A stretch of 64,000 nucleotides of DNA from Bacteroidota bacterium (lineage in GTDB: Bacteria > Bacteroidota > Bacteroidia > B-17B0 > Aurantibacillaceae): the NCBI GenBank assembly GCA_030681615.1, contig JAUXSA010000067.1:1-64000 (forward strand). Direction: 5' to 3'. Every line of letters starts with the position of its first letter. Within the stretch, counting starts at the first letter, position 1. A model generated the notes under the pieces. The model made no database searches. It was not told where the DNA came from and saw only the letters and a list, made by a program, of their open reading frames with translations. Of the stretch, positions 18,294 to 54,986 are shown one piece after another. The position numbers and the translations under genes were made by a program.

Positions 18294-18367
18294 GGTTATG
18301 TAGCTCAACTGGATAGAGCACCTCACTACGGATGAGGAGGTTTGGGGTTCGACTCCCTACATGACCA
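18294..18367 (+). tRNA. tRNA-Arg, anticodon ACG; 3' CCA not encoded
   Basis: Cloverleaf folded by hand: acceptor ggttatg/catgacc, anticodon stem cctca/tgagg with loop ctACGga, T arm tgggg-ttcgact-cccta, discriminator A. Confidence 0.95.
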
Positions 18368-18379
18368 CATTCAAGAATC

Positions 18380-18474: not shown

Positions 18475-18510
18475 AAAAAGCCTTTTCGATTAATTTCGGA
18501 AAGGCTTTTG
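18475..18510 (-). terminator. Hairpin terminator, probably for the minus-strand surface-protein operon
   Basis: aaaagccttttcg ... cggaaaggctttt; symmetric A/T tracts. Confidence 0.65.
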
Positions 18511-18538: not shown

Positions 18539-20821
18539 TTAATTTAACAGTGTAACATGTCCAACAAGCGTTTTAGCTACGCCACGTTGGCTTCCGTAAA
18601 GAAATTTATATGAGATTTTGTATATATAAGTATCCATCTTACATTCTTGTCCTTTGAAGGTTCCATTCCAACCCTGGGTAGGATCGTTTGTTTCATAAAT
18701 TTTTTCTCCCCATCTATCAAAAATAAGCATAGTAAACTCATTAAAGTTAATGCCTTTTACTGCAAACACATCGTTTAAGCCATCTCCATTTTTAGGTGTA
18801 AATGCATTTGGAACAAAAATAGTAGGTATGTCCTTAATTTCAATTTGTTTAGTAACAGAATCAACACAATTATGAATATTAGAAACAATAAGTGTTACAT
18901 TAAAAAAACCAACATCATAGAACGAATGAGATGGATGTGTTTGATTTGTGAAACTTCCGTCGCCAAAATTCCAGGCTGAAGAAGAATAGTTGCCTGAAGA
19001 AGAATTTTGAAATTCGATCTTAGGGTTCATTATATCTATATCCATTATTGAGGAATAAATAAAATCGGCGTTTGGTTTTGGATGAACGGTTATATAATTA
19101 TTTTTTGTGTTTGAATTTACACAACCGCTATCTGATGTTGCAATTAAAGAAACATTATATGTTCCGGCATTATTAAACACAATAGTTGGTGATGCTGAAT
19201 TAGAGGAACTTCCATTATTAAAATCCCATTGATAGAAACTAATTTTTGGATCATTACCTGAAAGATTTGTAAAGTTTACTAATAGTGGTTGACAACCCGA
19301 TTTAATAGCTGCATCAAAATTTACAACAGGCAACTGATTAACGTTGACAGTTATTGTATCATGTATCAAACAATTATTTTTATCAGTCAATATGGTGCTG
19401 TATTGACCGCTGTTAGTTGGTGTTAATACAATGGCAGAAGAACTATTCAATAAATTCGTATAAGTAACTCCGGTACTCCAGTTTAATACATATGGTGTTG
19501 TACCTCCTCCATAAATTGCATTTAGTTGTAAAGGTTGATTTCTACAAAACGAATAATCGTTTGCAGTTAAACTATGCGTTAAGATCGTGGGTTCAAAAAC
19601 ATTTATATTATCCAGTGTATCAGAACAACCCATAACATCGGTTGCAATAATTGTATAAGTACCGGCAATTAAATTTGTTTTTATTGTGTCGGTAGAGGTC
19701 AAAGAATTCCAACTATATGAATTAACCCCATAACCTGGTGTGGTTGAGAACTGAATAACACCGTTATTTTGTCCAAAACATTTTACACTGTCTACATTTA
19801 AAAGGCCAATACTTAATTGTTTGTATTCGCCCAAGGTAAACACGCCATAATTGGTATTGGTTGTTACTGTTTGTTCATTTAATATTGAGTTATTACTACT
19901 GGTAATTGGCGTCCAGCCATTTGTTGAATAATACCAGGTGTTTAATAGTGGCTCTGTTATTAAATTAGTGCTTGAAGCATTGGTATTCCATTCATCATCC
20001 ACATAAGTTACTTTTTTGGTAACGGTTGGCAATGTACTGTAATTATTAGCGTTGATCACCCAAAAACGATCCAACATTTTTATAGCATGCTCGGTACCGC
20101 AATTATTAATTAGATCTGCAACACCAGTTGGAAGTGGCCTGTTATTAATAGCTGCGCTTGTAATTGTTGGGTAGGTGGAGGCACTAATGCTGCCTGTGGC
20201 GGTTTGTGTTCCTGCAGCCGATATATTATAATAAAATGGAATGTAAGAAGCTGTAGCCGTGCCAAAAGGAAATTCATAATTACCTATGTTATTTCCAAGA
20301 TTCCATTGGATAGTTCCGTATCCCGGAACGGCCGGCGTTTCACTTAAAATATAACCACTTGTTCTTATTATGGCAGATTGCAAAGCGTTAGTAACAAATA
20401 GAGTATTACTATTCAGGTCTAATGTCCTTGAAGTTAAATTTAAAACACCCGTTGTGCCGCCAACAATTGTATTAATATTTAAGCGTTTTATATTAGTGCC
20501 TAGTAATGTTAAATTATTAAATGTTGTTGTTGTTGTTCCTGTAATTAGTTGTAAGGCCCCGTTTAATTCAACCATTCCGGTTGTGGCCGTAAGTGCAGAT
20601 GTTGTGGAGTTATTAGTCCAGTCTCCGGATAATGCTATCGTGCCTGAGTTATTTATTAAACCAATATTTACCCCGTTATCTGTGTTGATCACCTCACCCT
20701 GAACAAAAATTAAACCACCACTTTGCACTGCAATTGAACTTCCGTTATTAAAAAATTCGTTTTGAGACGATAAATTAATTGAAATAGTACAGAGCAATAA
20801 TATTTTAAATAAGTTCTTCAT
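18539..20821 (-). CDS. Secreted PKD/SprB-type protein with gliding-motility-associated (T9SS type-B) C-terminal domain
   Basis: YQWDFNNGS and WNFGDGS PKD motifs; C-terminal VPNAFTPKNGDGLNDVF...IFDRWGEKIY...GWNGTFKG...YIYKI...GHVTLLN. Confidence 0.88.
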   Translation of the reverse strand: MKNLFKILLLCTISINLSSQNEFFNNGSSIAVQSGGLIFVQGEVINTDNGVNIGLINNSGTIALSGDWTNNSTTSALTATTGMVELNGALQLITGTTTTTFNNLTLLGTNIKRLNINTIVGGTTGVLNLTSRTLDLNSNTLFVTNALQSAIIRTSGYILSETPAVPGYGTIQWNLGNNIGNYEFPFGTATASYIPFYYNISAAGTQTATGSISASTYPTITSAAINNRPLPTGVADLINNCGTEHAIKMLDRFWVINANNYSTLPTVTKKVTYVDDEWNTNASSTNLITEPLLNTWYYSTNGWTPITSSNNSILNEQTVTTNTNYGVFTLGEYKQLSIGLLNVDSVKCFGQNNGVIQFSTTPGYGVNSYSWNSLTSTDTIKTNLIAGTYTIIATDVMGCSDTLDNINVFEPTILTHSLTANDYSFCRNQPLQLNAIYGGGTTPYVLNWSTGVTYTNLLNSSSAIVLTPTNSGQYSTILTDKNNCLIHDTITVNVNQLPVVNFDAAIKSGCQPLLVNFTNLSGNDPKISFYQWDFNNGSSSNSASPTIVFNNAGTYNVSLIATSDSGCVNSNTKNNYITVHPKPNADFIYSSIMDIDIMNPKIEFQNSSSGNYSSSAWNFGDGSFTNQTHPSHSFYDVGFFNVTLIVSNIHNCVDSVTKQIEIKDIPTIFVPNAFTPKNGDGLNDVFAVKGINFNEFTMLIFDRWGEKIYETNDPTQGWNGTFKGQECKMDTYIYKISYKFLYGSQRGVAKTLVGHVTLLN

Positions 20822-20836
20822 ATAATTGAATTCATT

Positions 20837-22930
20837 TTAAAATTTAATACATGGCATTAATGCAACATTTCGCGGCCTTGAGGCGCTGATCATACCTTGA
20901 GCAGGCGCACCTGCATATACTACCCAGTTAGCAACCGGTGATGCGGCATTGCCACGCCCCCAATAAGCATTAGGAATTGAACCAACAGTAACAGTTGGCC
21001 ATGGGTCGGATAATGTTGTAGCTGCATTATCCATAGAAAAATCCGTGTCCTGAGCTGCTGCACCAGGAGTATCATCATGAATTAATGGTGATGGACTTTG
21101 CCAGGTTCCTATAGTGCGGCCGGGATCTGACCCCTTACCATTATCAAAACCTCTTACAAACTCACCTCTCAGATCGGGTAAATTAAAAGTTGTAACACCG
21201 TCGCCCGGGCCATATGTTATACCAATGGCTGCAAATAGTTCGGCATAGGTTATTCTGTTAACGGCGGCGCCATTGCATTCTAAATAACCATTTGGTGCGG
21301 TTGTATTAGCAAAATATTGTACTGTGCCGGCAGGATTATTTGCACAATCCCATTTAGTGCCATCCCAGTAATAAAAACCCAAAAGATTTGTGTCGTATAC
21401 CTGCACACCAGCCACTGGAGCAACGATCGCTTTTCTTTGAGCGCTTGTCATACGAGGCATTGCAAAGCCATTAGCGGTACTTACCACATCTAAATATGCC
21501 TGTGGGGCAGTTGTACCAACGCCAACAAAACCACCATAAGGATTAATTGCTAAAACACCTGTACTGGCAACATTTTCTAAAGCGGGCGGCGCACTACCAG
21601 CTGGTGTATAAAATTGAATCACACCGTTCGTATTCGCATCAAATGTAATATGAGAGTTAGAATTATTATCGTAAATTCTTAAACTATTATCTGTGTAAGG
21701 TTTTATGTTATCTGCAAAAATAATTGTAGCAGAACGTCCAACCGCGAAGTTACCAGCGGCAAAAACATTATCAGCTATATAAGCATCGCCATTTAAAACA
21801 TCAAATTTTCCGCGAGGGTTGTTTGTACCAACTCCCACAAATCCGTTTCCTTTGGCAGTAAGAACAGGAGCTCCGGCAGTTCCTTGCACTCCGGTTGATG
21901 CGTCAAAAATAGTATTACTTGCCGCGGTTCCTAAAATTTTAACCATTAAACCGTTGGCATTTCCTAAAAGACTTTGATTATAAAACGATCCGGCATAACC
22001 ACCATTATTAAGTCTCCAAAATAAAGATGCCCCTCCTCCCGCACTACTATTAGCACCTTGACCATCAGAGCCAATAGTATTTATAAAAGCGCCTTGCATA
22101 TTGTGAAACAAACCTGAATTTTCAAATCTGGCTTGTTCAATATTATTTGTTCTAAATACGAGTGCAACATTATCTGTAGTACCTAAAAAATTGGTTGCCG
22201 GAACTGTACCGGCGTTACCCAACAAGTTCCAAAAAGTACCATTTGTAGGGGTCCAGCTTGTGCCGTTAAACTGTAAAATTTGTCCTGTAGTTGGAGTAAC
22301 TGCTGCAACAGGTGTAGTTTGTAAACCAACTACTGTTAATGCAGGGTAAGTTCCGCTTACATCATTAGTGCCAGGTGGTAAAGGTGGCGCGCAAAGCGAT
22401 TGCCAGGCAGTTAAAGCAGCATTATAAAAAAACAAACAGTTAATGGTAAGATCGTAAACTAATAAACCATTTGCAGGTGTGGCAATAGCAGTACGCTGCG
22501 CAGTTGTCATCCTTGGAATTAATAAACCGCCGGTAGTAGAAACCATTTCTACCAAAGCAGAAATATCTGGAGCGGCTGTTCCAATACCAAACCTACTTGC
22601 AGCTGTAAAACGCGCTACTTCTATATTATTAGTTCTAAAAATAAGGTCGTTGGCATTTGTGGTTCCTAAAAAATTAGTTAAGCCAATATTTGCATTCCCG
22701 TTAATAAGCCAATCGGCAGCGGCAGGCACCACAAGGCTGTCATAAATACGGCCATTAGGGGTGGAAAACACATGTCTTACAGCTGGGCCGGTATAAATCA
22801 AAGTGTCAGATCGTATTGCACCACTAACGTGTAATTTAGATTGAGGGTTATTGTTACCAATACCAACGTTTTGCGAATAAATACAAAAGCAAGAGTGAAT
22901 TAAAATTGTTATGAAGGCTATTTTTTTCAT
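20837..22930 (-). CDS. Secreted tail-fibre-like protein ending in a phage tail-collar-type domain
   Basis: QNVGIGNNNPQSKLHVSGAIRSDTL N-terminus; C-terminal YLECNGAAVNRITYAELFAAIGITYGPGDGVTTFNLPDLRGEFVRGFDNG. Start set to ATG 22930. Confidence 0.82.
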   Translation of the reverse strand: MKKIAFITILIHSCFCIYSQNVGIGNNNPQSKLHVSGAIRSDTLIYTGPAVRHVFSTPNGRIYDSLVVPAAADWLINGNANIGLTNFLGTTNANDLIFRTNNIEVARFTAASRFGIGTAAPDISALVEMVSTTGGLLIPRMTTAQRTAIATPANGLLVYDLTINCLFFYNAALTAWQSLCAPPLPPGTNDVSGTYPALTVVGLQTTPVAAVTPTTGQILQFNGTSWTPTNGTFWNLLGNAGTVPATNFLGTTDNVALVFRTNNIEQARFENSGLFHNMQGAFINTIGSDGQGANSSAGGGASLFWRLNNGGYAGSFYNQSLLGNANGLMVKILGTAASNTIFDASTGVQGTAGAPVLTAKGNGFVGVGTNNPRGKFDVLNGDAYIADNVFAAGNFAVGRSATIIFADNIKPYTDNSLRIYDNNSNSHITFDANTNGVIQFYTPAGSAPPALENVASTGVLAINPYGGFVGVGTTAPQAYLDVVSTANGFAMPRMTSAQRKAIVAPVAGVQVYDTNLLGFYYWDGTKWDCANNPAGTVQYFANTTAPNGYLECNGAAVNRITYAELFAAIGITYGPGDGVTTFNLPDLRGEFVRGFDNGKGSDPGRTIGTWQSPSPLIHDDTPGAAAQDTDFSMDNAATTLSDPWPTVTVGSIPNAYWGRGNAASPVANWVVYAGAPAQGMISASRPRNVALMPCIKF

Positions 22931-22958
22931 TATTAAAATATTAATTAAAAGGATCTTA

Positions 22959-25142
22959 TTATTTAGTTTCAAGCTTCGAAATACGCTTTAATAATTCATC
23001 ATATTTCTCATTTAAAACTTTTATTTCAGCTTTTTGTTCGTTAATGATCGTCTGTTGCTCTTTCATGCCCTGCAACAGGTATAAACCAAAGCGGCTATAA
23101 TCAACCGACCAGGCCTCTTTACTATCATCTTTTGGCTTATATACAACACCGGGAAACAATTCATATAATTCCTGCACCAAAACACCAAAATCATTTTCTT
23201 TAATAACAGCGCCTTTTTCTATTGCACCGCCATTTTTTGAAACAGGTTGGTGCATGTTATAGGTATAAGTTTTTACCTGCATTAATTTTTCTAATACCGG
23301 CTGATTAAATGCAGTTATAGAAGTTTTAAAACGTCTATCGCTTATTGCAAATGTACCGTTGCTAAAAAATTGTCCTAATCCGTCAATACGCGCCATCGTA
23401 CGTTCAGCATAGGCATTATCGTAGCCTCTGAATTCAAATCCCCTGTCAGCATTTGTATTTGCGGCAACCTGGGTAACGTCAGAAGTATTCCAAAAATCCA
23501 CGTGGCTTCGTCCGGCATTCCGGTTCATACCAACAGCCATTGCGCCAACACCGCCTATCCAGGTTGTTCCGGGGGCTTGTCCTCCAAGTGGATCAGCATT
23601 ATAATTTCCTGCTAAAAAATAACCATATCCAACAGTCATTTTATGAATTACGTTATCTGCAACAGCTGGATTTATACAAGTAGATAATCCATTTGGTAAG
23701 CCAACCCTAACACCTCCTCCGGTTGGATTTAGAGATAAGATTGCTTCAGTTCCCGGAATTTCTAATGCGTTAGGATTAGCGCTAGTAGTGCTGTTATACG
23801 ATTGAATAATACCTTGTGTATTGGATTCTAAATGCAAATGCGATGGAGAGTTTCCGTCATAAATTCTAAATCCATTATCCGTATAAGGACGAATATTATC
23901 AGTAAAAATAGTTGTATTTGACCGCCCAACGTTAAATGCATATTGTGGGAAAACATTATCAGCTACATAAGCATCACCATTTAAAACATCAAATTTTCCG
24001 CGCGGGTTTGTTGTTCCAACTCCCATTCTTCCGTCATTTAAAATATCAACTAAAGGCTGCCAAACATTTCCCGGAAAAGTTGTTCTGCCAAATACGATCC
24101 TATCTATTGTAGCAGGTGCTATAGCATCGTCCGTAATATTAAAACGCCATTCAGATTCGTCAGGTAATCTATTAAAACGTGCCATCCAAAAATCATCTGT
24201 ATTGTTAAATGTATTTGATAAATATAATTTATCGCCTAATACATTTGTTGCAGCTAATGGATTACCAAGTTGAATGTTCCCATTAACATGAAGGCGCTCT
24301 GTAGGTGCGTTTGTTGCTATGCCCACATTTCCACCGGCAAGTATCCTTGCCCTTTCGGTATTATTGGTTCTAAAAACAAGGTCTATATTATCGGTCGTTC
24401 CTAAAAAATTAAGCGCTGCGTTTGTTCCGGCATTTCCTAATAAATTCCAAAAGGTTCCGCTTGTAGGTGTCCAAGCAGTTCCGTTAAATTGTAATATCTG
24501 TCCATTAGTGGGTGTTACGGCGGCAACTGGTGTAGTTTGCAATCCTACAACTGTTAAGGCAGGATAAGTTCCGCTAACATCATTCGTACCCGGTGGTAAT
24601 GGCGGGGCGCATAAAGATTGCCAGGCTGCTAAAACTGAATTATAAAAGAATAAACAATTTATAGTTATATCATATACTAATAAACCATTGGATGGCGCAG
24701 CAATAGTGGTTCGCTGAGCAGTTGTCATCCGGGGAATTAATAAACCGCTAGTGGTAGATACCATTTCTACCAATGCAGAAATGTTTGGATTTGCAGTACC
24801 GATACCAAAATTTCCAGCAGCCTTAAATCTTGCTACTTCAATATTGTTTGTTTTAAATATTAAGTCGTTAGCATTTAAAGTTCCTAAAAAATTAGTTAAG
24901 CCAATATTGGCATTTCCATTTATCTCCCAGTTTAGAGTTGAAGGCATAACCAAACTATCATATATGCGACCATTTGGAGCTGCAAATAAATTCCTTACAC
25001 CAACACCAATTAGTGTATCTGCTCTTATAGCACCACTAACATGTAACTTCGACTGTGGATTATTATTACCAATACCAACATTTTGCGAAAAAACAGAGAA
25101 CGAGGTAAGACTTAAAACAAGGGCAAGTAAAAATATTTTCAT
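22959..25142 (-). CDS. Secreted tail-fibre-like protein ending in an S74/endosialidase-chaperone domain
   Basis: Same N-terminus as its neighbour; C-terminal AISDRRFKTSITAFNQPVLEKLMQVKTYTYNM...FGVLVQELYELFPGVVY and terminal coiled coil. Confidence 0.85.
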   Translation of the reverse strand: MKIFLLALVLSLTSFSVFSQNVGIGNNNPQSKLHVSGAIRADTLIGVGVRNLFAAPNGRIYDSLVMPSTLNWEINGNANIGLTNFLGTLNANDLIFKTNNIEVARFKAAGNFGIGTANPNISALVEMVSTTSGLLIPRMTTAQRTTIAAPSNGLLVYDITINCLFFYNSVLAAWQSLCAPPLPPGTNDVSGTYPALTVVGLQTTPVAAVTPTNGQILQFNGTAWTPTSGTFWNLLGNAGTNAALNFLGTTDNIDLVFRTNNTERARILAGGNVGIATNAPTERLHVNGNIQLGNPLAATNVLGDKLYLSNTFNNTDDFWMARFNRLPDESEWRFNITDDAIAPATIDRIVFGRTTFPGNVWQPLVDILNDGRMGVGTTNPRGKFDVLNGDAYVADNVFPQYAFNVGRSNTTIFTDNIRPYTDNGFRIYDGNSPSHLHLESNTQGIIQSYNSTTSANPNALEIPGTEAILSLNPTGGGVRVGLPNGLSTCINPAVADNVIHKMTVGYGYFLAGNYNADPLGGQAPGTTWIGGVGAMAVGMNRNAGRSHVDFWNTSDVTQVAANTNADRGFEFRGYDNAYAERTMARIDGLGQFFSNGTFAISDRRFKTSITAFNQPVLEKLMQVKTYTYNMHQPVSKNGGAIEKGAVIKENDFGVLVQELYELFPGVVYKPKDDSKEAWSVDYSRFGLYLLQGMKEQQTIINEQKAEIKVLNEKYDELLKRISKLETK

Positions 25143-25570
25143 ACAAATAAAATAGATTGCTAAAGATATGATAAAATAAATTTATTAGGGTTATTAAAAG
25201 TTTAATTCTTTCCTACTTTTCAACCTCTAAATCAATTTAATATTGTTTAGATGATTTTATCAATGAATTCTATCTAATTTATTTAAAGTTTCATTTTATG
25301 GCAACTAAAACCCTAAAAAATGATCAATTTGTTTCTTTTGCAATTTTAAAAGAAAACAAAACTTTAATAAATCTAAAATGAGTAAAAATTGGAAGATCAA
25401 AACAATGGAGTTCTCCATTTTAAAGGTTGCCTATTTATGGAAAGAAAATAACTTCTGCATCTAAATAACAAAAGCAATGAAAAACAGCCCTATTCACTTT
25501 AAACAACTATTCATAATTAATTTTGTAAAAAAATGCAATTTTGCTTACTTTTAAAATCCACTTTATAAAA

Positions 25571-27859
25571 ATGATGAAGAACTATTTTAAAGCCATATTT
25601 ATTTTTTTATTTTTTAGTACAAAAATATTTTCTCAGGATTGGGTATTTGTTTTTAGCAGTACTATAGAAAAAGAAGGCAAAGGCATGGGTGGCGCCAGCA
25701 TCAAACTTCTAAAAGGCTCAACGGTTGTTTCAGAAACAACTTCTGATGGCAGCGGACGTTTTAAATTAGACATACCCCCAAATGGTGCTTACATGATTGT
25801 AATGAGCAGTCCGGGCCTAAGCACAAAAAAAGTGGCTGTTTCAACTATGGATGTACCTGCCGATAAAACAGCTAAAAATTTTAAATCTGCCCTTAATATT
25901 GAATCGTTTACTTTGTTTGAACCCTTACCCGGAATTGATTATTCTGCTTTAAATCAGCCACTATTAAATATTGCATATAACGGTTCAAAAAAAGCTTTTT
26001 CGGATGATGCCTCTTATACAGATCAAATGCTGGGTGTACTTTCGCGAATTAAAGAAGCAGAAAAAGCATTAATACAAAAATACGATGCTGCCATTGCTGC
26101 AGCAGACGGGGCTTTTACAAAACAAGACTGGACCAACGCTAAATCGAATTACGAAAAGTCGCTTACACTATTACCAGGAAAAAAATATCCTAAAGATCGT
26201 TTGGAGCTGATCCAAAAAATTATAAAAGAAGAAGAAGACCTTAATAAAAAAGCAGAAGCAGATAAATTAGCTGCAGAGAAAGCAGCAACAGAAAAAGCAG
26301 CGGCGGATAAATTAGCAGCAGAAAAAGCAGCTGCTGATAAAATTGCCGCTGAGAATGCAGCTAAAGAAAAAGCGGCGGCAGATGCGGCGGCTAAAGCAAA
26401 AGCAGCGGAGGAAGCAAAATTAGCAGCAGAGAAAGCAGCTGCCGATAAACTTGCCGCAGAAAATGCTGCCAAAGAAAAAGCAGCAGCAGAAGCAGCAGCT
26501 AAAGCAAAAGCTGCAGAGGAAGCAAAATTAGTAGCAGAGAAAGCTGCGGCCGATAAACTTGCTGCAGAAAATGCAGCCAAAGAAAAAGCGGCAGCAGAAG
26601 CAGCAGCTAAAGCAAAAGCTGCAGAAGAAGCAAAATTAGCAGCAGAGAAAGCTGCGGCCGATAAACTTGCTGCAGAAAACGCAGCCAAAGAAAAAGCGGC
26701 AGCGGAAGCAGCCGCTAAAGCAAAAGCAGAGAAGGAAGCAGCAGATGTGGCAGCTAAAGCCAAGGCAGAAAAAGAATTAGCAGACAAACAAGCTGCGGAA
26801 AAAGCAGCAGCAGAGAAAGCAGCGGCTGATAAACTTGCTACGGAAGCAGCAGCTAAAGCAAAGGCAGAAAAAGAATTAGCAGACAAACAAGCTGCGGAAA
26901 AAGCAGCTGCAGAGAAAGCAGCTAAAGCAAAGGCAGAAAAAGAATTAACAGACAAACATGCTGCAACAGAAAAAGCCGCTGCCGATAAATTAGCAGCAGA
27001 AAATGCAGCCAAAGAAAAAGCAGCTGCAGAGGCAGCTGCAAAAGCCAAAGCAGAAAAAGAATTAACAGATAAATCAGCTAAAGAAAAGGCAGATGCAATA
27101 GCTGCTGAAAAAGCAAGAGCCGAAAAAGAAGCTGCTGATGCTGCCGCAAAAGCAAAAGCTGCCGAGGATGCGAAATTAGCCGCCGAAAAAGCAAATGCAG
27201 ATAAAATTGCTGCTGATAAAGCAGCGAAAGATAAAGCTGTTGCCGATAAATTAGCTGCGGAAAAAGCTGCAGCTGATAAAAATGCAGCCGACAAAGCAGC
27301 AAAAGATAAAGCCGCGGCAGATAAATTAGCTGCAGAAAAAGCAGCCAATGAAAAAGATAAAGCCGATCAACTTGCAAAAGAAAAAGCGGCGGCAGACAAA
27401 GCAAAGCTTAAAGCCCAAAAAGAAAAAGAAGCAATAGAAAAAGATAAGGCAGAACAACTCGCATTAGAAAAAGCAGCAGAGGATAAAGCAAAACTTAAAG
27501 CGCAAAAGGAAAAAGAAGCAGCTGAAAAAGAAAAAGCAGAGCAATTGGCAAAAGATAAAGCTGCGGAAGCAGAACGCCTTGCAAAAGAAAAAGCTGCAGA
27601 AGATGAGAAAATTAAAGCTAAAGAATCTGAAACCACAACAAACGGACAAATTGGTCATAAAGAAGCCAAACACAGTATTGCAACACCAATTGGAAAAGAT
27701 CTGCATAAAGAAGCTGTTGTGAAAGCGGATGGTTATTTTAAAATGAAACGTTACGATGAAGCTAAAACTGCCTATGAAGAAGCGCTTCAAATGAAGCCAG
27801 AAGATGCTTACTCTAAAGGAAAACTAGAGCAAATATCAAAGTTATTGGCTCCTAAATAA
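25571..27859 (+). CDS. Secreted Ala/Lys/Glu-rich TolA-like coiled-coil protein with N-terminal carboxypeptidase-regulatory-like domain and C-terminal TPR-like region
   Basis: Signal peptide [60 protein letters not shown]; long (A)[12 protein letters not shown] repeats; C-terminal [37 protein letters not shown]. Confidence 0.85.
26330..26730 (+). repeat. Tandem in-frame repeat, 108 bp / 36 aa, about four copies ([36 protein letters not shown])
   Basis: 'gataaacttgcYgcagaaaaYgc' recurs near 26445, 26553 and 26661. Confidence 0.8.
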
Positions 27860-29019: not shown

Positions 29020-29118
29020 ATTCTTTCTTTTTTATAATACGAATTTACTACATAAAGTAGTTACACTTTGCTACGATTTATAGTATTAACAAATCCTTTA
29101 AATACGTCTACATTTTTA

Positions 29119-29126
29119 TACCTTTG
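29119..29126 (+). promoter_or_regulatory. TACCTTTG -7-like box 4 nt before ATG 29131
   Basis: Sequence reads taTACCTTTGttacATG. Confidence 0.5.
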
Positions 29127-29130
29127 TTAC

Positions 29131-30060
29131 ATGAGAAAATTTGCACTTGCAATACACGGAGGCGCCGGAACTATTTTACGTTCGAGCATGACCGCCGAAA
29201 AAGAAATGGCTTATAAAAAAGCATTGGAAGATGCAATGATTGCCGGTGAAGGTCTTTTAGTAAAAGGCGGACGTAGTATGGATGCAATTGAAGCGGCCAT
29301 CCGATCGCTGGAAAATAACCCTCTTTTTAATGCGGGCAAAGGTGCGGTTTTTACAAACGAAGGCAAACACGAAATGGATGCTTCTATTATGAATGGAAAG
29401 GATCTTATGGCAGGCGCAGTTGCGGGTGTACAGAATATTAAAAATCCAATTAGCCTTGCGAGAGCTGTTATGGAAAAATCGGAACATGTATTTATGGCTG
29501 GCTTGGGCGCGCAGGAATTTGCAAAAAAAATAAATGCAGAGTTTATGCCGGATGATTATTTTTTTGTGCAACAACGTTACGATCAATTACAAGAAGCAAA
29601 AAAAGAAGATAAAATGATCCTTGATCATACCGATAAAGAGAAAAAATTTGGTACTGTTGGTGCCGTTGCAATAGACCAGCATGGAAATTTAGCTGCAGGC
29701 ACAAGTACCGGAGGTATGACGAACAAAAAACACGGGCGTGTGGGCGATACGCCTGTAATAGGTTCTGGTACTTATGCCAATAATAAAACATGTGCTATTT
29801 CGTGTACAGGCCATGGCGAATTTTTTCTTCGCGCAGTGGTGGCTTACGATATCTCCTGTTTAATCGAGTACAAAGGTCTCTCACTAAAAAAAGCCTGCGA
29901 TATTGTAGTAATGGATAAACTGGTTAAGATCGGTGGCGAAGGTGGATTGATAGCGCTGGACGCAAAAGGGAACATTGAATTACCATTTAATTCAGAAGGA
30001 ATGTACCGCGCTTCTAAAAAAGAAGGCGAAGATTTATTTATTGGAATTTATAAGGATTGA
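29131..30060 (+). CDS. Isoaspartyl peptidase / L-asparaginase (plant-type, Ntn hydrolase)
   Basis: LAIHGGAGTI, NAGKGAVFTNEG, catalytic KKFGTVGAVAIDQHGNLAAGTSTGG. Start set to ATG 29131. Confidence 0.9.
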   Translation: MRKFALAIHGGAGTILRSSMTAEKEMAYKKALEDAMIAGEGLLVKGGRSMDAIEAAIRSLENNPLFNAGKGAVFTNEGKHEMDASIMNGKDLMAGAVAGVQNIKNPISLARAVMEKSEHVFMAGLGAQEFAKKINAEFMPDDYFFVQQRYDQLQEAKKEDKMILDHTDKEKKFGTVGAVAIDQHGNLAAGTSTGGMTNKKHGRVGDTPVIGSGTYANNKTCAISCTGHGEFFLRAVVAYDISCLIEYKGLSLKKACDIVVMDKLVKIGGEGGLIALDAKGNIELPFNSEGMYRASKKEGEDLFIGIYKD

Positions 30061-30063
30061 TCT

Positions 30064-30942
30064 TTATTCTATTATCTTAACCGGGCGTGTATGAAAGGTC
30101 AGCCGCTTTGTCTTAAGATCAAAATGATCTCCAAAGGACATCACATGAATCGTTAAATTTTCAATAGATACAGGCTCTCCCATCTCTACTTCAAAAATAT
30201 TTGTACGGCGCATATGTGTGCCGTCCACTAAAATAACAAGTCCAGAACCAATGGCTTCCATATCGTTGCCATCTTTTATTAGTAGACCTGTATCTTCTCC
30301 CAAACCAATTCCTAAGTTAATAGGATTACTGGCGCAGGCATACATTAAACGGCCAATACGGCCACGCTGTACAAAGTGAGTATCAATAATAACATTATTT
30401 ATAAAACCTAAACCGCCGGTAATTTTTACTTCACCTTTTAATAAGGCTTCACTACTACTTCCCTGGTAGATCATATTATTAGAACTTGCCGCGGCTCCTG
30501 CAGAAGTTCCTGCAATTATAAAATTCTCATTCTCGTATCGGTCAAGCAGCATGTGATGAAAAGCAGTGCCGCCATATATGGAAGTAAGTTTTAACTGGTC
30601 ACCACCAGTAAAAATAACAACATCTGCCTTTTTTAATCTTTCAATATTCTCAGGCGCATTGGCATCTTCGCGGGTACGTATATCTAAAATGGCAACGTCC
30701 TGAATGTTCAATGATTGAAAAGCTTTTACATATTCTGCGCCAACTTCTTGCGGTATACTACTAGCCGTTGTAATAACTTCTATCCGCGATAGATTTTGTT
30801 TTGCCGATTCAGTGCTGATCCTTTTCAAGATCCCACGTTCAAAAAATTTAAGGTTAAGCGGTAAATCTGCTTGTGCAACAAAATGACTTCCTTTATCAAC
30901 CGAACCGCCAATTATAATTAGTTTTCCTTTAGGTACCGCCAT
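30064..30942 (-). CDS. cphB: Cyanophycinase
   Basis: LIIIGGSVDKG, VIFTGGDQLKLTSI, IIAGTSAGAAASSNNMIYQG, DTHFVQRGRIGRLM. Confidence 0.9.
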   Translation of the reverse strand: MAVPKGKLIIIGGSVDKGSHFVAQADLPLNLKFFERGILKRISTESAKQNLSRIEVITTASSIPQEVGAEYVKAFQSLNIQDVAILDIRTREDANAPENIERLKKADVVIFTGGDQLKLTSIYGGTAFHHMLLDRYENENFIIAGTSAGAAASSNNMIYQGSSSEALLKGEVKITGGLGFINNVIIDTHFVQRGRIGRLMYACASNPINLGIGLGEDTGLLIKDGNDMEAIGSGLVILVDGTHMRRTNIFEVEMGEPVSIENLTIHVMSFGDHFDLKTKRLTFHTRPVKIIE

Positions 30943-30961
30943 TTAATTTTTCTGATTTATA

Positions 30962-30969
30962 CAAAACTA
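30962..30969 (-). promoter_or_regulatory. TAGTTTTG -7-like box upstream of cphB
   Basis: Consensus match 19 nt upstream of ATG 30942. Confidence 0.45.
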
Positions 30970-31087
30970 CCTTATTTATCAAACAATATTGCCCAAATTG
31001 TGTTTCATTTATCATGTTATTTTAAACACGCTATTGTTTAAATAAAAAACAAATAGTACTTTCAAACAAATTGCTAAATTAGAATTA

Positions 31088-33703
31088 ATGAAGATTATTG
31101 AAACAAAAGCTCTGAGAGGCCCTAATTACTGGTCAAATTACAGGAAAAAACTGATCGTTATGAAACTTGACCTCGAGGAACTGGAACAATCACCCACCAA
31201 TAAAATACCCGGTTTTTTAGAGAGGCTTGAAAAAATGATTCCCACTATGGGGTCGCACCGTTGCTCTAAGAGCCACGCCGGTGGTTTTTTTGAGCGTGTT
31301 AAAGAAGGTACCTGGATGGGTCATGTTATTGAACATATAGCTTTAGAAATACAGTCGCTTGCCGGCATGGAATGCGGTTTTGGTCGCACCCGCGGTACAG
31401 GCAAAGAGGGTGTTTATAATGTGGTTTTCTCTTATATGGAAGAAAAGGTTGGTCTTTATGCCGCCAAAGTTTCTGTTGCTATTGCCGAAGCGCTTATTGC
31501 TTCAAAAGAATATGATCTTACAGCAGATATTAAAACCATGCGCGAAATGCGAGAACGCGAACGTTTAGGGCCAAGTACCGGTTCTATTGTGGACGAGGCG
31601 GTTGCCCGCGATATCCCTTTTATTCGCTTAAATGGCGAATCGTTAGTGCAATTAGGTTATGGCAAGAACCAGGTACGATTTAGGGCTACCATGACAGACC
31701 GCACCAGCTCTATAGCAGTAGATCTTGCAAGTAATAAAGATGAGACCAAACGCATGCTTGCAGAAGCAGCAATACCGGTTGCAAAAGGTATGTGCATTTC
31801 TACACTGGAAGAAGTAAAAGAAGTTATTGAAAAAGTAAAATTCCCTTTAGTATTTAAACCACTGGATGGTAATCATGGTAAAGGCGCTTCTATTAATGTA
31901 AAAACAGAAGCTGAAGCTATTGAAGCTTTTCACCATGCAAAAAAATATTCACGTAAAATTATCGTAGAAAAATTTATTACGGGATACGATTTCAGGGTTT
32001 TAGTAATTAACCACCGTTTTATTGCAGCGGCTTTGCGTGAGCCGGCTCATGTTATTGGAGACGGAAAATCTACTATAAAACAATTGATCGATCAGGAAAA
32101 TAAAGATCCAAGAAGAGGTTACGGGCATGAAAATGTATTGACCGAGATTAGCATTGATAAAGAAACGCATGACCAACTTGCAAAATTTAATTACACGTTA
32201 GATACCGTTCTTAAAAAAGATGAACAATGTTATTTAAAAGGTACAGCTAACTTAAGCACTGGTGGCACATCTACTGATGTTACAGATATTATGCACCCAA
32301 CAAACATCTTTATTTGCGAACGCATATCGCGCGTTATTGGTTTGGATATTTGCGGTATTGATATCATGGCGCAGAATTTAAGTGAGCCTTTAGAAACCTC
32401 TGGTGGCGTAGTTTTAGAAGTAAATGCCGCGCCGGGTTTTAGAATGCACTTAGCGCCAGCAAAGGGTTTGCCAAGAAACGTAGCCGCACCGGTAATTGAT
32501 ATGTTGTATCCTCCGGGAAAAAGTTGCAGGATCCCAATTATTGCAATTACAGGCACCAACGGTAAAACTACAACTACCCGCTTAATTGCACACATTGTAA
32601 AAAATAACGGTTATCGTGTTGGTTATACAACCTCTGATGGTATTTACGTTCAAAACTCCATGCTAACAAAAGGCGACACAACCGGACCCGTTAGTGCTGA
32701 ATTTATTTTAAAAGACCCTACAGTAGAATTTGCAGTGTTAGAAACAGCGCGTGGCGGTATCTTACGTTCGGGTTTAGGTTTTGGCAGATGTGATGTGGCT
32801 GTTGTAACAAACATACAGGAAGATCATATGGGCCTTTCGGATATTAATACTTTAAAAGACATGGCCAATGTTAAAGGCGTTGTTGTTAAGAGTGTGAAAC
32901 GTAATGGTTATGCTGTATTAAATGCAGATAATGAATATTGTGTTGGTATTGCAAAAGATGCAGATTGCAATATTGCTTATTTTAGTTTGAATGAAAATAA
33001 CAAAGTAATTGTTGAGCATTGTAAAAAAGGCGGCGTTGCAGCTATACTTGAAAATGGATTTATTACCATTAAAAAAGGCGAATGGAAATTCAGGGTATGT
33101 AAAGTTACAAATGTGCCGCTTACATTTAATGGTAAAGTATCATTTATGATAGCAAACGTTTTGGCGGCTACATTGGCTTCTTATGTTTATGGTTTTACCA
33201 TTGAAGATATAAAGACGAACCTGGAAACGTTTATTCCTTCGGCCTCGCAAACACCAGGCCGTATGAATGTGTTTGATTTTAAAGAGTATAAAGTACTTAT
33301 AGATTTTGCGCATAACCCCGACGGTTTTAATGGTATAAAAGAATATTTATCATCTATAGATTCTCCAAAAAAGATCGGCATCATTACAGGAACCGGTGAT
33401 AGGCGAGACGAGGACATTCGCAAAATGGGAAAAATTTCTGCCGAAATGTTCGATCATATTATTATTCGTCAGGATAAATTTTTACGTGGCCGCGAGGCGC
33501 AGGAAATTGTTGATCTGTTAGTAGAAGGAATTAAAGAATCTGACACAAATAAATCTTACGAATATGTTCCTAAAGAAATAGAAGCCTTGAAACATGCATT
33601 CTCATTAGCAAAACCGGGTACATATATTGTTGCCTTAAGTGATGTGATAGATAATGCTATTGAAGTAGTGCAATCGTATCTAGATAAAGAAAGAGCGTCG
33701 TAA
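31088..33703 (+). CDS. cphA: Cyanophycin synthetase (ATP-grasp plus Mur-ligase-like domains)
   Basis: RGPNYWSNYR start, MGHVIEHIALEIQSLAGMECGFGRTR, ATP-grasp VFKPLDGNHGKGASIN, ITGTNGKTTTTRLIAHI P-loop. Confidence 0.94.
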   Translation: MKIIETKALRGPNYWSNYRKKLIVMKLDLEELEQSPTNKIPGFLERLEKMIPTMGSHRCSKSHAGGFFERVKEGTWMGHVIEHIALEIQSLAGMECGFGRTRGTGKEGVYNVVFSYMEEKVGLYAAKVSVAIAEALIASKEYDLTADIKTMREMRERERLGPSTGSIVDEAVARDIPFIRLNGESLVQLGYGKNQVRFRATMTDRTSSIAVDLASNKDETKRMLAEAAIPVAKGMCISTLEEVKEVIEKVKFPLVFKPLDGNHGKGASINVKTEAEAIEAFHHAKKYSRKIIVEKFITGYDFRVLVINHRFIAAALREPAHVIGDGKSTIKQLIDQENKDPRRGYGHENVLTEISIDKETHDQLAKFNYTLDTVLKKDEQCYLKGTANLSTGGTSTDVTDIMHPTNIFICERISRVIGLDICGIDIMAQNLSEPLETSGGVVLEVNAAPGFRMHLAPAKGLPRNVAAPVIDMLYPPGKSCRIPIIAITGTNGKTTTTRLIAHIVKNNGYRVGYTTSDGIYVQNSMLTKGDTTGPVSAEFILKDPTVEFAVLETARGGILRSGLGFGRCDVAVVTNIQEDHMGLSDINTLKDMANVKGVVVKSVKRNGYAVLNADNEYCVGIAKDADCNIAYFSLNENNKVIVEHCKKGGVAAILENGFITIKKGEWKFRVCKVTNVPLTFNGKVSFMIANVLAATLASYVYGFTIEDIKTNLETFIPSASQTPGRMNVFDFKEYKVLIDFAHNPDGFNGIKEYLSSIDSPKKIGIITGTGDRRDEDIRKMGKISAEMFDHIIIRQDKFLRGREAQEIVDLLVEGIKESDTNKSYEYVPKEIEALKHAFSLAKPGTYIVALSDVIDNAIEVVQSYLDKERAS

Positions 33704-39967: not shown

Positions 39968-42900
39968 ATGAAAAAAATTATATCAATTAGTTTACTATTA
40001 TTACTTGGCTTTAGCAAGGCAAGTTTTTCGCAGGTAACAGCAACACAGTGCAGCCAAGCCGTTAATATTTGTAGTAATGCAAGTTTTGGTATCAACCCAA
40101 ATGGCAATGGCACCCTTCCTCCTTCAGGTTCATTTGGAAATCCAAGTAATGCAACTTTTCCGTTGACAGGAGTTGGTGGTTTTGGTTGTTTATTATCAGG
40201 GGCTTTAAATAGTACATGGATGATTATCAATGTGCAAACTACAGGTATACTTGAATTTTCTTTTGGTGCTGGTGCTATTAATCCGCAGGCAGGTTGTTAT
40301 GACTGGATCATGTATCCATATACAAATAACTGCGCGCAAATTACAGGTGGCACCATAGCTCCTATTCGTTGTAACTGGAACTCAATGTGTAGCGGTGGTA
40401 CAGGAATTGCCAATACAGTTCCTGCCGGAGGAACTGCGGCAGATTTCCCTCCTGGCTTGGCCGTAACCTGTGGACAAAAATTTATTGTTTGTTTTTCTAA
40501 TTACAGCAGTGTAACTACAAATGTGAACTTAAACTTTTTCGGATCTGCGCAAGTTAGTTGTAATCCAATTCCAAACCCTTTAACTTTAGGCAATCAAACT
40601 ATTTGCCAGGGTAACTCAGTTAACTTAACCGTTACTGGTTCTGCAGGAAATACTTATACATGGCAACCGGGTAACTTAAATGGAAATACAATTTCTGTTT
40701 CACCAACTGTAACTACAACTTATTCTGTTGCAGGTAGTGGTGGTTGCGGAAGTGTTACAGGAAATACAACTGCTGTTGTTACCGTTAATCAATCAAATGC
40801 AAATTTTACAACTGCTAACTCAGGTCCGGGTGGCGCGGGCGATCCAACACCGGCGCAACAATGTTTAACCGGCAACTCATTTAATTTTACAAGTGCTTTA
40901 GCGGGCGGAACACACCAATGGAATTTTGGTCCTGCTGCCACTCCGCTTACATCAACAGCCGCAAACCCAACAAATGTTACTTTTAATACACCGGGCATTT
41001 ATACAATTTCGCATACAGTTACCAACGCGCCTTGTGTGCAAGTGATCACACAAACTGTAAATATTAGTCCAATGCCTTTAGCAACAGTAACAAATACAAA
41101 TCCTATTTGCTCACAAAATAACGGAGCTATACAAATAAATAACACATCACCTGCAGGACAAACTGTTGTTGGTTTTTCTGTTAACTCTGTTGCTATTCCT
41201 TCTCAAACATTAACAGGATTAGGTGCCGGATCTTATGTTGTTTCTATGGTAAATAATTTTGGTTGTACATTTTCACTTACAACTAATTTGGCCAATACAC
41301 CCGGTATTACAAATGTAGGTTTAACTGCTGTGAACGCGCCATGTGCCGGAAATGCAGGTATTGTTAACGTTGGAGCAGTAACCGGAGGATCTGCGCCGTA
41401 TCAATATAATATTAATGGCGGCCCTTTTGGAACAGGAACATCATTTACCAGCTTAGCGCCCGGCACTTATACAGTAGGTGTGCTTGATATTAATAACTGT
41501 CCGTTTACAAAAACGATAACTGTTGTAGGATCACTCCCTCCCACCAACGTAACCTTTACCACTTCCCCTACAGCCTGTGTGGGCAATACAGGGGTGTTGG
41601 GTATAACAGGCGTAACAGGCGGCGTAGCCCCCTTTACTTTTAGCGTTAATGGAGTAACAACGGGATCAGTAACAAATAGTTTAGCAGTAGGCCCTAAGAC
41701 GATAACAGTAAAAGATGTGAATGGTTGTACGTTTACTATTACAGCCAATATACCTATGGTAACGGGCCCAACAGCAGCCACCATTGCAGTTACCCCTGCA
41801 GCCTGCGGTAATGCAAATGGAAGTGCAACAGTTACTAACGTAACAGGCGGTGCGCCAGGATACCAATACTCCTTTAATGGCGGGCCATTTGTTGGTAGTA
41901 CCATTCAGGGCGGTATGCTAGCCGGCCCAAAAAATGTAGTTATTATAGATGTGAACCAATGTACATTAACGGTAAACTTTAATATAGGTAATACAGGCTC
42001 CCCTGCTTCAGCAATTGCAACACTAACCAATGTAAGTTGTTTTGGCGGTACAAACGGAGGGTTTAGCTTAACAACCAGTGGAGGAACACCAGGATATAGT
42101 TACACGTTAACGCCAGGTAACATCACTAACGGTTTTGGGGTTTATACAAATTTAACAGCACAAGCATACACTGTAAATGTAAAAGATGCTTTAGGTTGTA
42201 TTACAACAGTTACAACAACCATAGGCCAGCCAAGCGCTCTAACATTAACAGTAAGTTCGGTTCAGCCATCTTGTAATGGTGGCAATAATGGCACCGTTAC
42301 AGCAACGGCAGGCGGTGGAACAAGTCCATATTCATACAACATCAATGGAGGGCCCAACCAACCAGGCAATATATTTACAACTAATATCTCAGCGGGTGCT
42401 TATAACGTAACGGTTATAGATAACTTAGGTTGTTCATTAAGTCAAACAGTTGCAGTTACTCAGCCCTTGCCTATAACATTAACACTTACAAGTGTACCTG
42501 CCAATTGCTCTAGCGCAAACGGTTCGGCAAGTGTTGCGGCCAGTGGAGGCACTCCAATTTATACTTACACCTGGTTACCACTTGGAGGTAACAGTGCCCA
42601 ATCAAGCAGTGTTGTGGCAGGAAATTACACAGTAACGGTAAAAGACACGAAGAACTGTACAGTTACAGGTGTTGTTACAGTAAGTGCCACTCCGGGAGGA
42701 ACAGCAGTAATTACCAATACAAGTAACGTTACTTGTTTTGGTGCTGCCAACGGAAGCCTGACAGCTAACATGATCGGTAACGTAACAGCACCATTAACTT
42801 ATTCATGGAGTAATACTTCTATCTTACAAACAACGGGGCCTTTAGCTCCCGGCAACTATACGGTAACAGTTACCGACTTCTTTGGTTGTAAATCAACCAC

Positions 42901-45900
42901 AGTTGGAACAGTGACCCAGCCAAGCTCATTGACCCTTGTTCCTGCCAGCTCACCAGCCTTATGTTTTGGTGGGGCAACAGGAAGCGCCAGCGTTATTGCA
43001 GCAGGCGGTACCCCGGGTTATAATTACTTGTGGTCACCCGGTGGAGGAACAACAAGTGTTGTTTCAGGTTTATTTGCCGGAACATACAGTGTACAATTAA
43101 CCGATGCTAATGGTTGTACGATCACAAGAACAGTGAACGTTACCCAACCAACATCAGTAACAATTAATACAAGTACCTTAACAGCAAACTGTAACCAGGC
43201 AAATGGTGTAGCTTCTGCAACCGCTGTTGGGGGAACAGGACCTTATACCTATACATGGAGCACCAGTTTTGTTGGCCAAACATTATCTAACGTTACCGCG
43301 GGAACCTATACCGTTCAGGTAAAAGATGCCAACGGATGTTTATATACTTTAGCGGCAACCGTTCCTAACGCTTCTGGTCCTGCCATCGGTATCAGCAGCT
43401 TTACCAACCCAAGTTGTTTTGGTGGTAATAATGGAATTGCCACAACAACAATAAGTGGTGGTACACCCGGTCCGGGCTTCCCGATCTATAGTTGGAGCAA
43501 CGGACAAAATACAGGAACAGCAACTAACTTATTAAATGGCGTATATACAGTAACATTAACCGATGCTACAGGTTGTATCGCATCAGCCAGTGTAACTATT
43601 ACCCAACCAACTTCATTAACATTAATTGTTACAGGAACCAATCCAAAATGTTTTAACGCTACTAACGGTTCTGCTAACGCAGGTGTGTTAGGTGGAACCC
43701 CTGGATATACTTATGCATGGCTTCCTGCACCAGGCGCAGGTGGAACAACAGCCACACCAAGTGGTATGGGTCCAGGTAACTATGGTGTAACAGTAACAGA
43801 TAGTAAAGGATGTGTTATACAGGGTACTGTGAATTTAGCAAACCCTGCACAAATGTTATCAAGTGTAACAACCACTGCTGCTACCTGCTTTAACGCTTGT
43901 AATGGTTTAGCTGTTGGTTCTGTAACAAATGCAATTGGTGCTGTTTCTTACTTCTGGACCGGTGGTCCTGTTCCATTAACAACTCAAAATGTGAGCGGTC
44001 TTTGCGCAGGAACTTATACCATGTTAGCAACCGATCAAAATACATGTACATCAACAACTGTTTTAAATATCACCCAACCACCTTTATTAACAGTTAGCTT
44101 AAGCGCTGTTGGAAGTGTTAGTTGTAGTGGTGGAAGTAATGGTTTTGCTACAGCCTCGCCAAGTGGTGGAACGCCGGGTTATACTTACAACTGGAGCAAC
44201 TCTCAAACAACGGCAACAAGTAATAACTTAATAGCGGGCAGCTATACAGTAACTGTTACAGATACTAAATCTTGTACAGCTACTGCAGTGGCAGTTATAA
44301 ATCAACCTGCAGGCTTAACAGCTAATATTACCGGAACCAACATTACCTGCTTTAATTTAAATAACGGTATTGGTAATGTGAGTTACGCTGGTGGTACAGG
44401 TATACCAAATATATTATGGCAACCAAGTTTAGGAACTACCCAGTTAACAAATAACCTAGCTCCGGGAACACATACAGTAACATTAACAGATGGTAACGGT
44501 TGTATTATCACAAAAACAATTACACTTACCCAGCCTACACAGTTAGTAGTAAATACTTTCTCGGGAACCACAAATTGCGGCCAGGCAAACGGAACAGCAT
44601 CTTGTGTTGCAAGTGGGGGTGCGGGTGGATATACTTACCAATGGAGTTCTAACCCTAGTTTTACAAATACAATTATAAATAACGTTACCCAAGGCGCCTA
44701 TACTATTACTGTTACTGACGCTAACAATTGTAATGTAAGTGGTATTGCTATTATTAATGATATCGCCGGACCAACGGTTGCTGTTACTAATACAGTAAAT
44801 GTAACTTGTTTTGGTTTAGCAAATGGTGGGGCCACGGTTTCTGCCAGTGGTGGTGTTGGAACATTAACTTACCTATGGTCTTACTTAGCACAAACCACAC
44901 AAAACGTAAGTAACTTACCAAACGGTTTACATAGTATTACTGTTACCGATGCTGCCAATTGTGCGGCAAGTACAACAGTTAATATTACACAACCTGCACA
45001 ATTAGTAACCGCAATAGGTTCTGTAACCAATGTAGCTTGTAGCGGCCAGTTCAATGGTGCGGCGCAAATGCTTGCTGTGGGAGGTACAACTAACTACGCT
45101 TACTTATGGTCGCCTACAGCACAAACCAACTCAGTATTGACTGGTGTACAAAGTGGCGTTTACTCTTGTACTGTTACAGACGCAAACAATTGTACAAGTA
45201 CCAAAACGGTAAACATCGCTCAGCCAAATCCTTTATTAATAACTACAAACACAGTTATTCCTAATCTTTGTAATAGTTTTAGTACAGGTATTGTAAATAC
45301 AAGTATTACCGGTGGGTCTCCAACCTATACACTTACATGGACACCTGTTCAACCTGCTAACCCTATCATTACAAACTTAGGGGCAGGTTCTTATAGCTTA
45401 GCTGTTCTTGATGCTCAGGGCTGTACAACAAATAGTGTTTACACATTAGTAGATCCTCCTGCATTAGTGATACAATCAACTGCTACTACACAGGCTACTT
45501 GTGGTAACTCAAATGGTACTGCAAGTGTAAGTGTTACGGGTGGTTCTCCGGCTTATGCTTATAACTGGAATACTTCTAACCCGCAGTTAACGGCTGGTGC
45601 TACAGGTTTACCTCCCGGACAATGGGTATTAACTACAACCGATAGTAAGGGTTGTGTAATTACTGCCTCGGTAAATGTTACTGCCGCTGCTTTACCTTCT
45701 GTTAGCGCTGTATCAAATAACATTAGCTGCGCTAATATGAGCAATGGTAGTGCAACATTAACGGCAAGCGGCGTGGGTGGTTTTTCATATAACTGGATGC
45801 CTACAGGTTTAACAACTGCTATCATTAATGGACTTGGGCCTGCTATTCATACCGCAACTGTTACTGATCTTAATGGTTGTAAAACATTTACAAGTGTAAA

Positions 45901-47327: not shown

Positions 47328-47427
47328 GTTAACGGCATATCTCATCCAATGCTAATAAACTCGTTTATGTGTTTTTTTGCTTTTGTGAATTTTTTTCACT
47401 TAATTTATTATAATAAAATTGGAAAGC

Positions 47428-51579: not shown

Positions 51580-51596
51580 TATTTCTAAACACAGAT

Positions 51597-51635
51597 AAAG
51601 GTCCCGGTTGTTAATTCAGCCGGGACCTTTTGTTT
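51597..51635 (+). terminator. Intrinsic terminator after the M43 protease gene
   Basis: aaaggtcccgg-loop-ccgggaccttttgtttt. Confidence 0.88.
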
Positions 51636-51770
51636 TGTGCGCAATAAAACTCTATCGATTTAGGAGGAAAAAAAGCTAAAACTGTATTAAGAATTTGAGT
51701 TTTGAAATAAATTATTTTGTTATATATTTATTGTCCGTTTTCAAACTTAAAAGATCTTTCTATCAAAATA

Positions 51771-54700: not shown

Positions 54701-54986
54701 TTCATTACAAGCAAATTATAATAATGCGAACGGTATAAAAATCGTTAACCTTTATCCAAATCCAAACACCGGGCAGTTCACTGTATTCGTAGAATTCTAT
54801 AAAAAACAAAATGCGAGTATCCAGGCCTGGGATGCGAGTCCATACAAACATTTTCAACAAAATTTTTACGATGTGGATACTATCAGCTTACCCGTTAATT
54901 TATCGCAGTTACAAAACGGCGCTTATATTTTAAGAGTTATAGGTGAGTTTGATTCGCGAAATAAGCCATTTATTATAAGTAATTAG
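51771..54986 (+). CDS. Secreted T9SS type-A protein, probable beta-propeller N-terminus; TTG start
   Basis: Signal peptide (M)KHILIICLLIGFKINAQ from TTG 51771; C-terminal LYPNPNTGQFTVFVEF...LQNGAYILRVIG. Confidence 0.8.
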   Translation: MKHILIICLLIGFKINAQPILVHSNQYAEEVSSVAYDSINNKIFYNIAQGCAAWNIPCALSYTPSLKNLINKVDYGDNSLTTYVNSNLQANEPYYSVAGYQSTLAKQTSFQGDCIYSNFGYYFNKIDTTNLTAIWSYSVNTGIKEISTFEMKNDSLFLFERDSTSGKNYYSVILKNKLTGNTMPYNSLLASNPFSTNGNIEGFVYASARINDKIILCGAFTASLSGTFIARNLVIFNIATGQLQAPPISMSPNSIIYDLKCKNNKVYIAGLFSSISFQIRRNFAVLDNNLNLLQDTVQFTGLGAPFTLWVDKITFYDKYLIAKGNFNKIDNIVVSASDSYSVRVIDMTNNTVMPWTINLPPGAVPNYGYTYETVKNKLYLKKRGNLSPFYIYCFDPIKYSPNILFPGSTAANPSPSIAICAPDTIIFTAPIKYITTCNWTYSGANATLVPIGNGSTAKLIVAPNGANGLLTVGGINDCGLSATATLNVVVKQKPLFNLPVSPQLLICNPDSTLLQGASSNTSTTIWWRKNLTSTINPQPFYAKTPGNYYMVVLDNLNGCKDSGLVSVNSFKAKPNAKITSHIYPGVSIPIDTVTCFTPTVSITAGSDTVGVTITWKSIATNSVFTNPLNISAQNNLKIIVNRNSNNCVDSSMIVLVGQNTVKPNVVTNTSNLSINCSYYTASLNAVFSPTNCSTQWTGPLSFTATNPATTTNPGKYIISVNDPANGCTKIDSVSVISSNALMLHSSNDTTVCKQSPITIISSAIGTLTGVTFTWNTGNNNNSINVAPNVTTNYIINANGPGGCNGTDTVKVIIPSDIQDSVLAYRSCDNNLTGSIVMFANGGIPPYKFSINNGASFSSTNSFTNIPFGNYSLVIKDSLGCVRTTTANLNSSSSLPVPKFLASTQNYRSDTIVLVDISIPKADSVQWLLPSQASIIGGNMFNPVVIINDTGIFVITMKAFYGNCIINATKSIRFSPQDSLQANYNNANGIKIVNLYPNPNTGQFTVFVEFYKKQNASIQAWDASPYKHFQQNFYDVDTISLPVNLSQLQNGAYILRVIGEFDSRNKPFIISN

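Follow-up and report, generated by a model that had tools for sequence, protein, structure and literature searches.

The fibres with which the predator Bdellovibrio bacteriovorus recognizes prey, described as the Mosaic Adhesive Trimer (MAT) superfamily, are the closest known counterparts of the locus analyzed here: they are chromosomally encoded, trimeric surface fibres of S74 and non-S74 (NS74) type, with related capping loops in both types and self-cleavage of the S74 proteins at the Ser of an SDxxxK motif, and the surface element holding them is stated as unknown (PMC10769870). Also relevant is the type IX secretion system (T9SS) of Flavobacterium and Porphyromonas, in which PorP/SprF proteins collect type-B cargo and anchor it, and a shuttle encoded elsewhere can serve orphan type-B cargo (PMC9143113, PMC12618676). 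The operon studied here occupies positions 18539-25142 of a window of 64,000 nucleotides (the whole stretch of DNA analyzed; contig JAUXSA010000067.1 of assembly GCA_030681615.1) from a 4.28-Mb metagenome-assembled genome (MAG) of a Bacteroidota bacterium, and consists of three minus-strand genes in the order gene 1, gene 2, gene 3, of which the first two encode fibre proteins and the third a T9SS cargo protein with a type-B C-terminal domain (CTD). This operon is real and conserved: it represents the MAT type of fibre in a variant form from Bacteroidota, accompanied by a candidate T9SS partner; what is new is the recurrence of the N-terminal domain of gene 3 (N-domain) in T9SS cargo beside such fibres across families of the Bacteroidia. 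A search of the literature for S74 or collar fibres associated with T9SS or occurring in Bacteroidota found no relevant paper. Judging from sequence, we consider it somewhat probable that the operon specifies adhesive, cell-anchored fibres of the MAT kind, with the gene 3 N-domain docking or exporting the fibres.

Genes 1 and 2 resemble the MATs of B. bacteriovorus in being chromosomal, in possessing a signal peptide and a conserved base, and in forming a set of paralogs with different tips (PMC10769870). The two systems also have in common a beta-helix stalk, the same capping-loop sequence (GxVGIxTxAPTxxLHV), S74 or non-S74 tips, and SDxxxK. Stalk residues 248-294 matched the MAT crystal structures 8ojn, 8ol4, 8ond and 8oml (best E = 2e-4), the VGIGTxxPxxxLxV motif aligned with these structures, and the VGIGT-type capping-loop motif was present in four copies in each gene. 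In both proteins this MAT-like stalk is followed by an end of a MAT-like kind, either S74 with SDxxxK or an alternative tip. Unlike the present fibres, Bdellovibrio MATs belong to a different phylum, and a collar is absent from the tips named in the MAT discussion (PMC10769870); here a T9SS cargo gene lies in one operon with the fibres, and a predatory lifestyle forms no part of the evidence. An initial annotation of this DNA, which proposed a chromosomal surface appendage with exchangeable tips, missed both the MAT fibres as the closest known system and the wider pairing of fibres with the gene 3 domain.

That annotation assigned an S74 domain with an SDRRFK motif to gene 1, a tail-collar domain to gene 2 and a T9SS type-B CTD to gene 3, and profile searches gave matches over cut-off in all three cases. 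Peptidase_S74 (PF13884) matched gene 1 at residues 601-667 (E = 3.8e-9; 37.2 bits vs. a gathering score of 22); SDRRFK at residues 601-606 fits the SDxxxK catalytic motif, which was present in 4/4 S74 fibre orthologs, and the predicted cut falls before Ser601. At the level of structure matches, residues 588-712 corresponded to 6f45, the distal subunit of a phage long tail fibre. Collar (PF07484) matched gene 2 at residues 535-592 (E = 1.6e-22; 79.7 bits vs. a gathering score of 24), and the collar tip matched structure 8kec and, weakly, T4 1ocy. Genes 1 and 2 gave no NCBIfam match, and a T9SS CTD was likewise not detected in either. Gene 3 yielded matches over cut-off to PKD, CHU_C (E = 4.7e-16) and TIGR04131 (57.9 bits; cut-off 35). 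By inspection, the signal peptides of all three proteins leave a mature N-terminus beginning with QN (QNVGIG... for gene 1).

With its CTD over cut-off, its signal peptide (by inspection) and SprA in the genome, gene 3 has the features of T9SS type-B cargo. The genome encodes SprA together with 16 above-cut-off PorP/SprF genes, all 16 on other contigs; no PorP/SprF gene adjoins gene 3, such adjacency being usual for type-B cargo although not obligatory. Gene 3 is thus comparable to the SprB-SprF and PG1035-PorP pairs in its type-B CTD and in the presence of SprA and PorP/SprF in the genome (PMC9143113, PMC12618676), but unlike them it is an orphan, and its N-domain is linked to fibre genes rather than to SprB-type repeats.

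Conservation of the operon was examined in searches of 60 relatives. The operon type was found in 8/37 genomes of the genus and in one further named MAG (L093), always as one or two fibre genes plus gene 3. An S74 fibre and a collar fibre accompany gene 3 in the genome of the window (G000) and in its sister species G019; a collar fibre alone precedes gene 3 in G006, G034 (split over two contigs), G007, G002 and L093; and G016 and G029 combine an S74 fibre with a short HxH-rich collar-like fibre and gene 3. Four genomic contexts were represented, with five genomes at one site and G002, G016/G029 and L093 each elsewhere, so that the fibre/gene 3 set is kept together while its surroundings change. 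Because gene order is conserved in relatives, the operon arrangement is not due to chance, and the co-occurrence called for by the initial annotation is borne out. The fibre reading frames are conserved open across species. The base (QNVGIGNNNPQSKLHVSGAIR...PNGRIYDSLV) is invariant, with at most minor changes, in every complete fibre of the alignment; its first ~50 residues are retained even in the shortened fibres of relatives. In G007 the block between the base and PLPPG is lost.

The association between fibres and the gene 3 N-domain extends beyond the genus. With the N-domain as a profile, matches were obtained in 77 of 395 Bacteroidia genomes (E <= 1e-20); 60 N-domain loci were taken, giving 58 usable genes, and a fibre was called by a regular-expression test within three upstream same-strand genes. 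A fibre-type gene lay upstream of 22/58 N-domain genes (immediately upstream in 18), as opposed to 2/328 other genes of the same loci (Fisher p = 3e-18, a value inflated by genome relatedness), and upstream of 0/10 type-B cargo genes without the N-domain. In the reverse test, the N-domain was downstream of 5 of about 50 S74/collar loci vs. 0/87 genes in control loci. Both directions combined, the pairing was seen in at least 11 Bacteroidia families. The N-domain partners checked end in either type A or type B CTDs; thus it is the N-domain, not the CTD type, that goes with the fibres. Collagen repeats, YadA heads, and S74 and collar ends are found in the neighbouring fibres, and one run (L249) contains an S74 fibre, a small unrelated gene, an N-domain/CTD-B cargo gene and two PorP/SprF genes. 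The partner fibres of L143 and L146, in other families, have YadA_head repeats in common with trimeric autotransporter adhesins but, unlike YadA adhesins, lack a match to the YadA membrane anchor, end in S74 and stand beside a T9SS cargo gene.

Other fibre and collar loci were encountered in the same surveys. S74 fibres were present in 80/119 Bacteroidia genomes. In another family, at least six fibre genes lie in tandem (L256; G134:C49:44500-59000): their bases are near-identical and their stalks collagen-like (GxxG), but the tips vary, several being collars and others HxH-type or S74. Within the genus, a second, divergent fibre (QNVAIN.TGAAP...) forms an operon with the gene 3 domain in L167, L168, L160, L164, L172 and L179, with a mostly type-A-like CTD. 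Collar loci of a different kind, made up of small collar proteins (~180-220 aa) in tandem, occur in many Bacteroidia genomes (G119, G037, G144, G113, G067, G039 and others).

From this genomic association, gene 3 would be a T9SS-delivered dock or export partner of fibres that lack a CTD. As a generalization we propose, tentatively and at less than even probability, that Bacteroidia widely possess a surface system for phage-like trimeric fibres without a CTD, which would be displayed by a dedicated T9SS cargo protein with its N-domain as dock or export partner. Several points weigh against these proposals. Most sampled S74/collar loci had no gene 3 N-domain downstream, and 36/58 N-domain genes had no fibre by the regular-expression test; with so many unpaired genes on both sides, neither component strictly needs the other. 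The fibre call itself relies on a regular expression, and relatedness among the sampled genomes makes the p-values too small. MATs have a conserved ~130-aa beta-rich domain directly after the signal peptide, of which the conserved base of the present fibres is only a possible counterpart. Support comes from sequence and genomic association, and the structure models are poor: AlphaFold gave low confidence for the collar tip (pLDDT 32.1) and for the gene 3 N-domain (pLDDT 39.6 overall), although in the first ~60 residues of the latter model (pLDDT roughly 60-75) short strands follow one another closely in the manner of a beta-solenoid.

The scarcity of N-domain partners near most S74/collar loci, and the display of MATs by Bdellovibrio with no known T9SS-type partner (PMC10769870), would both be expected if the fibres were MAT-like surface adhesins that reach the surface by another route and gene 3 were an independent adhesin merely co-transcribed with them. 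We regard this as rather doubtful, since enrichment of the N-domain beside fibres extends over many families and both CTD types, and the operon remains a unit in four genomic contexts. A special case of docking is that the fibres hitchhike, binding the gene 3 N-domain in the periplasm, leaving through SprA and then staying attached or being released. The fibres do have a signal peptide with no detected CTD while their partner has a CTD, and the gene arrangement implies co-expression; trimeric fibres with globular tips are bulky, however, and docking after separate export fits equally well, which makes hitchhiking unlikely in our estimation.

The two fibre genes are old duplicates with a modular history. 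Their alignment spans about 480 residues at 64% (E = 2e-172), with common blocks in the N-terminal region, at GTNDVSG (185/187) and at GKFDVLNGDAY (382/374); the common blocks noted in the initial annotation are therefore real, but the near-identity ascribed to them holds only for short protein blocks. Nucleotide identity with orthologs in the sister species (about 83-93%) mostly exceeds that between the paralogs (about 56-89% in common blocks), which places the duplication before the split of the sister species and led us to reject gene conversion between genes 1 and 2. In the S74 fibres of G000 and G019, a ~90-residue stalk cassette has 33-52% nucleotide identity, whereas both sides have about 87-93%; the replaced segment is bounded by the repeats VGIATNAPTERLHV and MGVGTTNPRGKFDV, and its edges fall exactly at two VGIGTxxPxxxLxV repeats. 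These repeats thus look like joints at which stalk modules are exchanged. Exchange of tips, as initially envisaged, finds support in the three tip types (S74, collar, HxH-rich collar) that occur on the same base and that differ between operons; tips also differ within the L256 array. Against it, the collar tip is among the best conserved parts in the genus (95% mean column identity) and the clearest recent swap concerns the stalk cassette. This near-invariance of the collar tip speaks for a target that is itself conserved, and not for an arms race. A short third fibre with four HxH motifs in its tip was observed at L086:9269-10351 and L087:597-1691; HxH motifs of this kind occur in the metal-binding needles of some phage fibres.

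The tips of both proteins are homologous to C-terminal domains of phage tail fibres that carry S74 (endosialidase, T5 L-shaped fibre) or a collar (T4 gp12), and the gene 2 collar tip matched 758 phage records, the best at 40-50% identity over 94-99% of the query; the viral contigs searched for relatives contained one collar relative only. Since S74 and Collar are phage families, the operon might derive from a decayed prophage, tailocin or extracellular contractile injection system whose tail fibres persist or function in trans. We consider this very improbable, because, unlike phage fibres, both proteins carry signal peptides and are paired with a T9SS partner, because their open frames are conserved across species, and because the examined flanks are housekeeping or ordinary (formyltransferase, dapD-type succinyltransferase, OsmC, asparaginase and S51 peptidase families), with no phage gene, including virion structural genes, found among them. 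The initial claim of a chromosomal locus free of flanking phage genes therefore withstood the check for a prophage remnant. A search of the genome for tail-tube families gave no match but carries no weight, as its control search was empty as well.

Under the favoured reading, MAT-type fibres with gene 3 as partner, the products of genes 1 and 2 would be exported by Sec and would fold as homotrimeric fibres, each consisting of a conserved cell-proximal base, a stalk whose beta-helix modules meet at VGIGTxxPxxxLxV loops, and a tip at the C-terminus. The S74 domain of gene 1 would template trimerization and then cut itself off before Ser601, exposing the mature end; in gene 2 the phage-type collar tip would form the fibre end. 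Gene 3 would be exported by the T9SS, and its N-domain would most likely dock the fibre bases, or else carry the CTD-less fibres out, with adhesion as the probable function.

The coordinates of the operon are given in Table 1. The three minus-strand genes and their gaps of 28 nt (gene 1/gene 2) and 15 nt (gene 2/gene 3) were found as initially annotated, taking the ATG at 22930 as the start of gene 2, which gives the 28-nt gap, because the listed TTG start at 22972 would overlap gene 1. Terminator-like sites in the region were not above shuffles in number. Upstream of gene 1 the Bacteroidota promoter pattern TTTG..TAnnTTTG was not found, and sigma-70-type matches were at chance level.

Table 1. 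Positions of the operon features in the window
Feature	Position	Strand	Description
Gene 1	22959..25142	-	Fibre protein of 727 aa with signal peptide; S74 domain and coiled-coil-like tail at the C-terminus
Fibre base of gene 1, residues 20-185	24588..25085	-	Common to gene 2 (alignment)
Exchangeable stalk cassette of gene 1, about residues 286-372	24027..24287	-	Replaced in sister species G019
S74 intramolecular chaperone/protease domain of gene 1, residues 601-727	22962..23342	-	PF13884, SDRRFK, 6f45 match
Gene 2	20837..22930	-	Fibre protein of 697 aa with signal peptide; collar tip, base in common with gene 1
Collar-type tip of gene 2, residues 525-697	20840..21358	-	Full-length homolog of phage tail-collar tips
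Gene 3	18539..20821	-	T9SS type-B cargo of 760 aa; signal peptide, beta-rich and repetitive N-domain, PKD repeats and a CHU_C/TIGR04131 CTD
N-terminal domain of gene 3, residues 20-341	19799..20764	-	Part recurring beside fibre genes across Bacteroidia
T9SS type-B CTD of gene 3, residues 669-760	18542..18817	-	TIGR04131, CHU_C
Terminator-like hairpin, 14 pairs	18476..18509	both	Directly downstream of gene 3; consensus match

The dapD-type succinyltransferase is the next gene downstream of gene 3. A tRNA-Arg (acg) at 18294-18368 lies directly behind the operon and does so as well in G006 and G034; as it adjoins the operon only in these two and G000, and not in the other contexts, movement of the operon by integration at this tRNA was unsupported. 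The divergent neighbour of gene 1 (25541-27859), conserved there in five genomes, encodes a 772-aa protein with a very long Ala/Lys/Glu-rich repeat segment. Adjoining Asparaginase_2, S51-type peptidase (cyanophycinase-like) and cyanophycin synthetase-like genes at 29068-33703 resemble a cyanophycin make-and-degrade cluster. A second large T9SS surface-protein cluster comprises a protein of 2433 aa containing 13 stretches of SprB repeats, PKD and a type-B CTD (39968-47269), followed by an M43 peptidase-like gene and more T9SS-tailed genes (47419-54986).

The recurrent partner of these fibres offers a candidate mechanism by which Bacteroidota may export and anchor phage-like fibres. If this is true, the T9SS would carry or display proteins that have no secretion signal of their own for it, and would offer a route for displaying MAT fibres, whose holder in Bdellovibrio is stated as unknown (PMC10769870).

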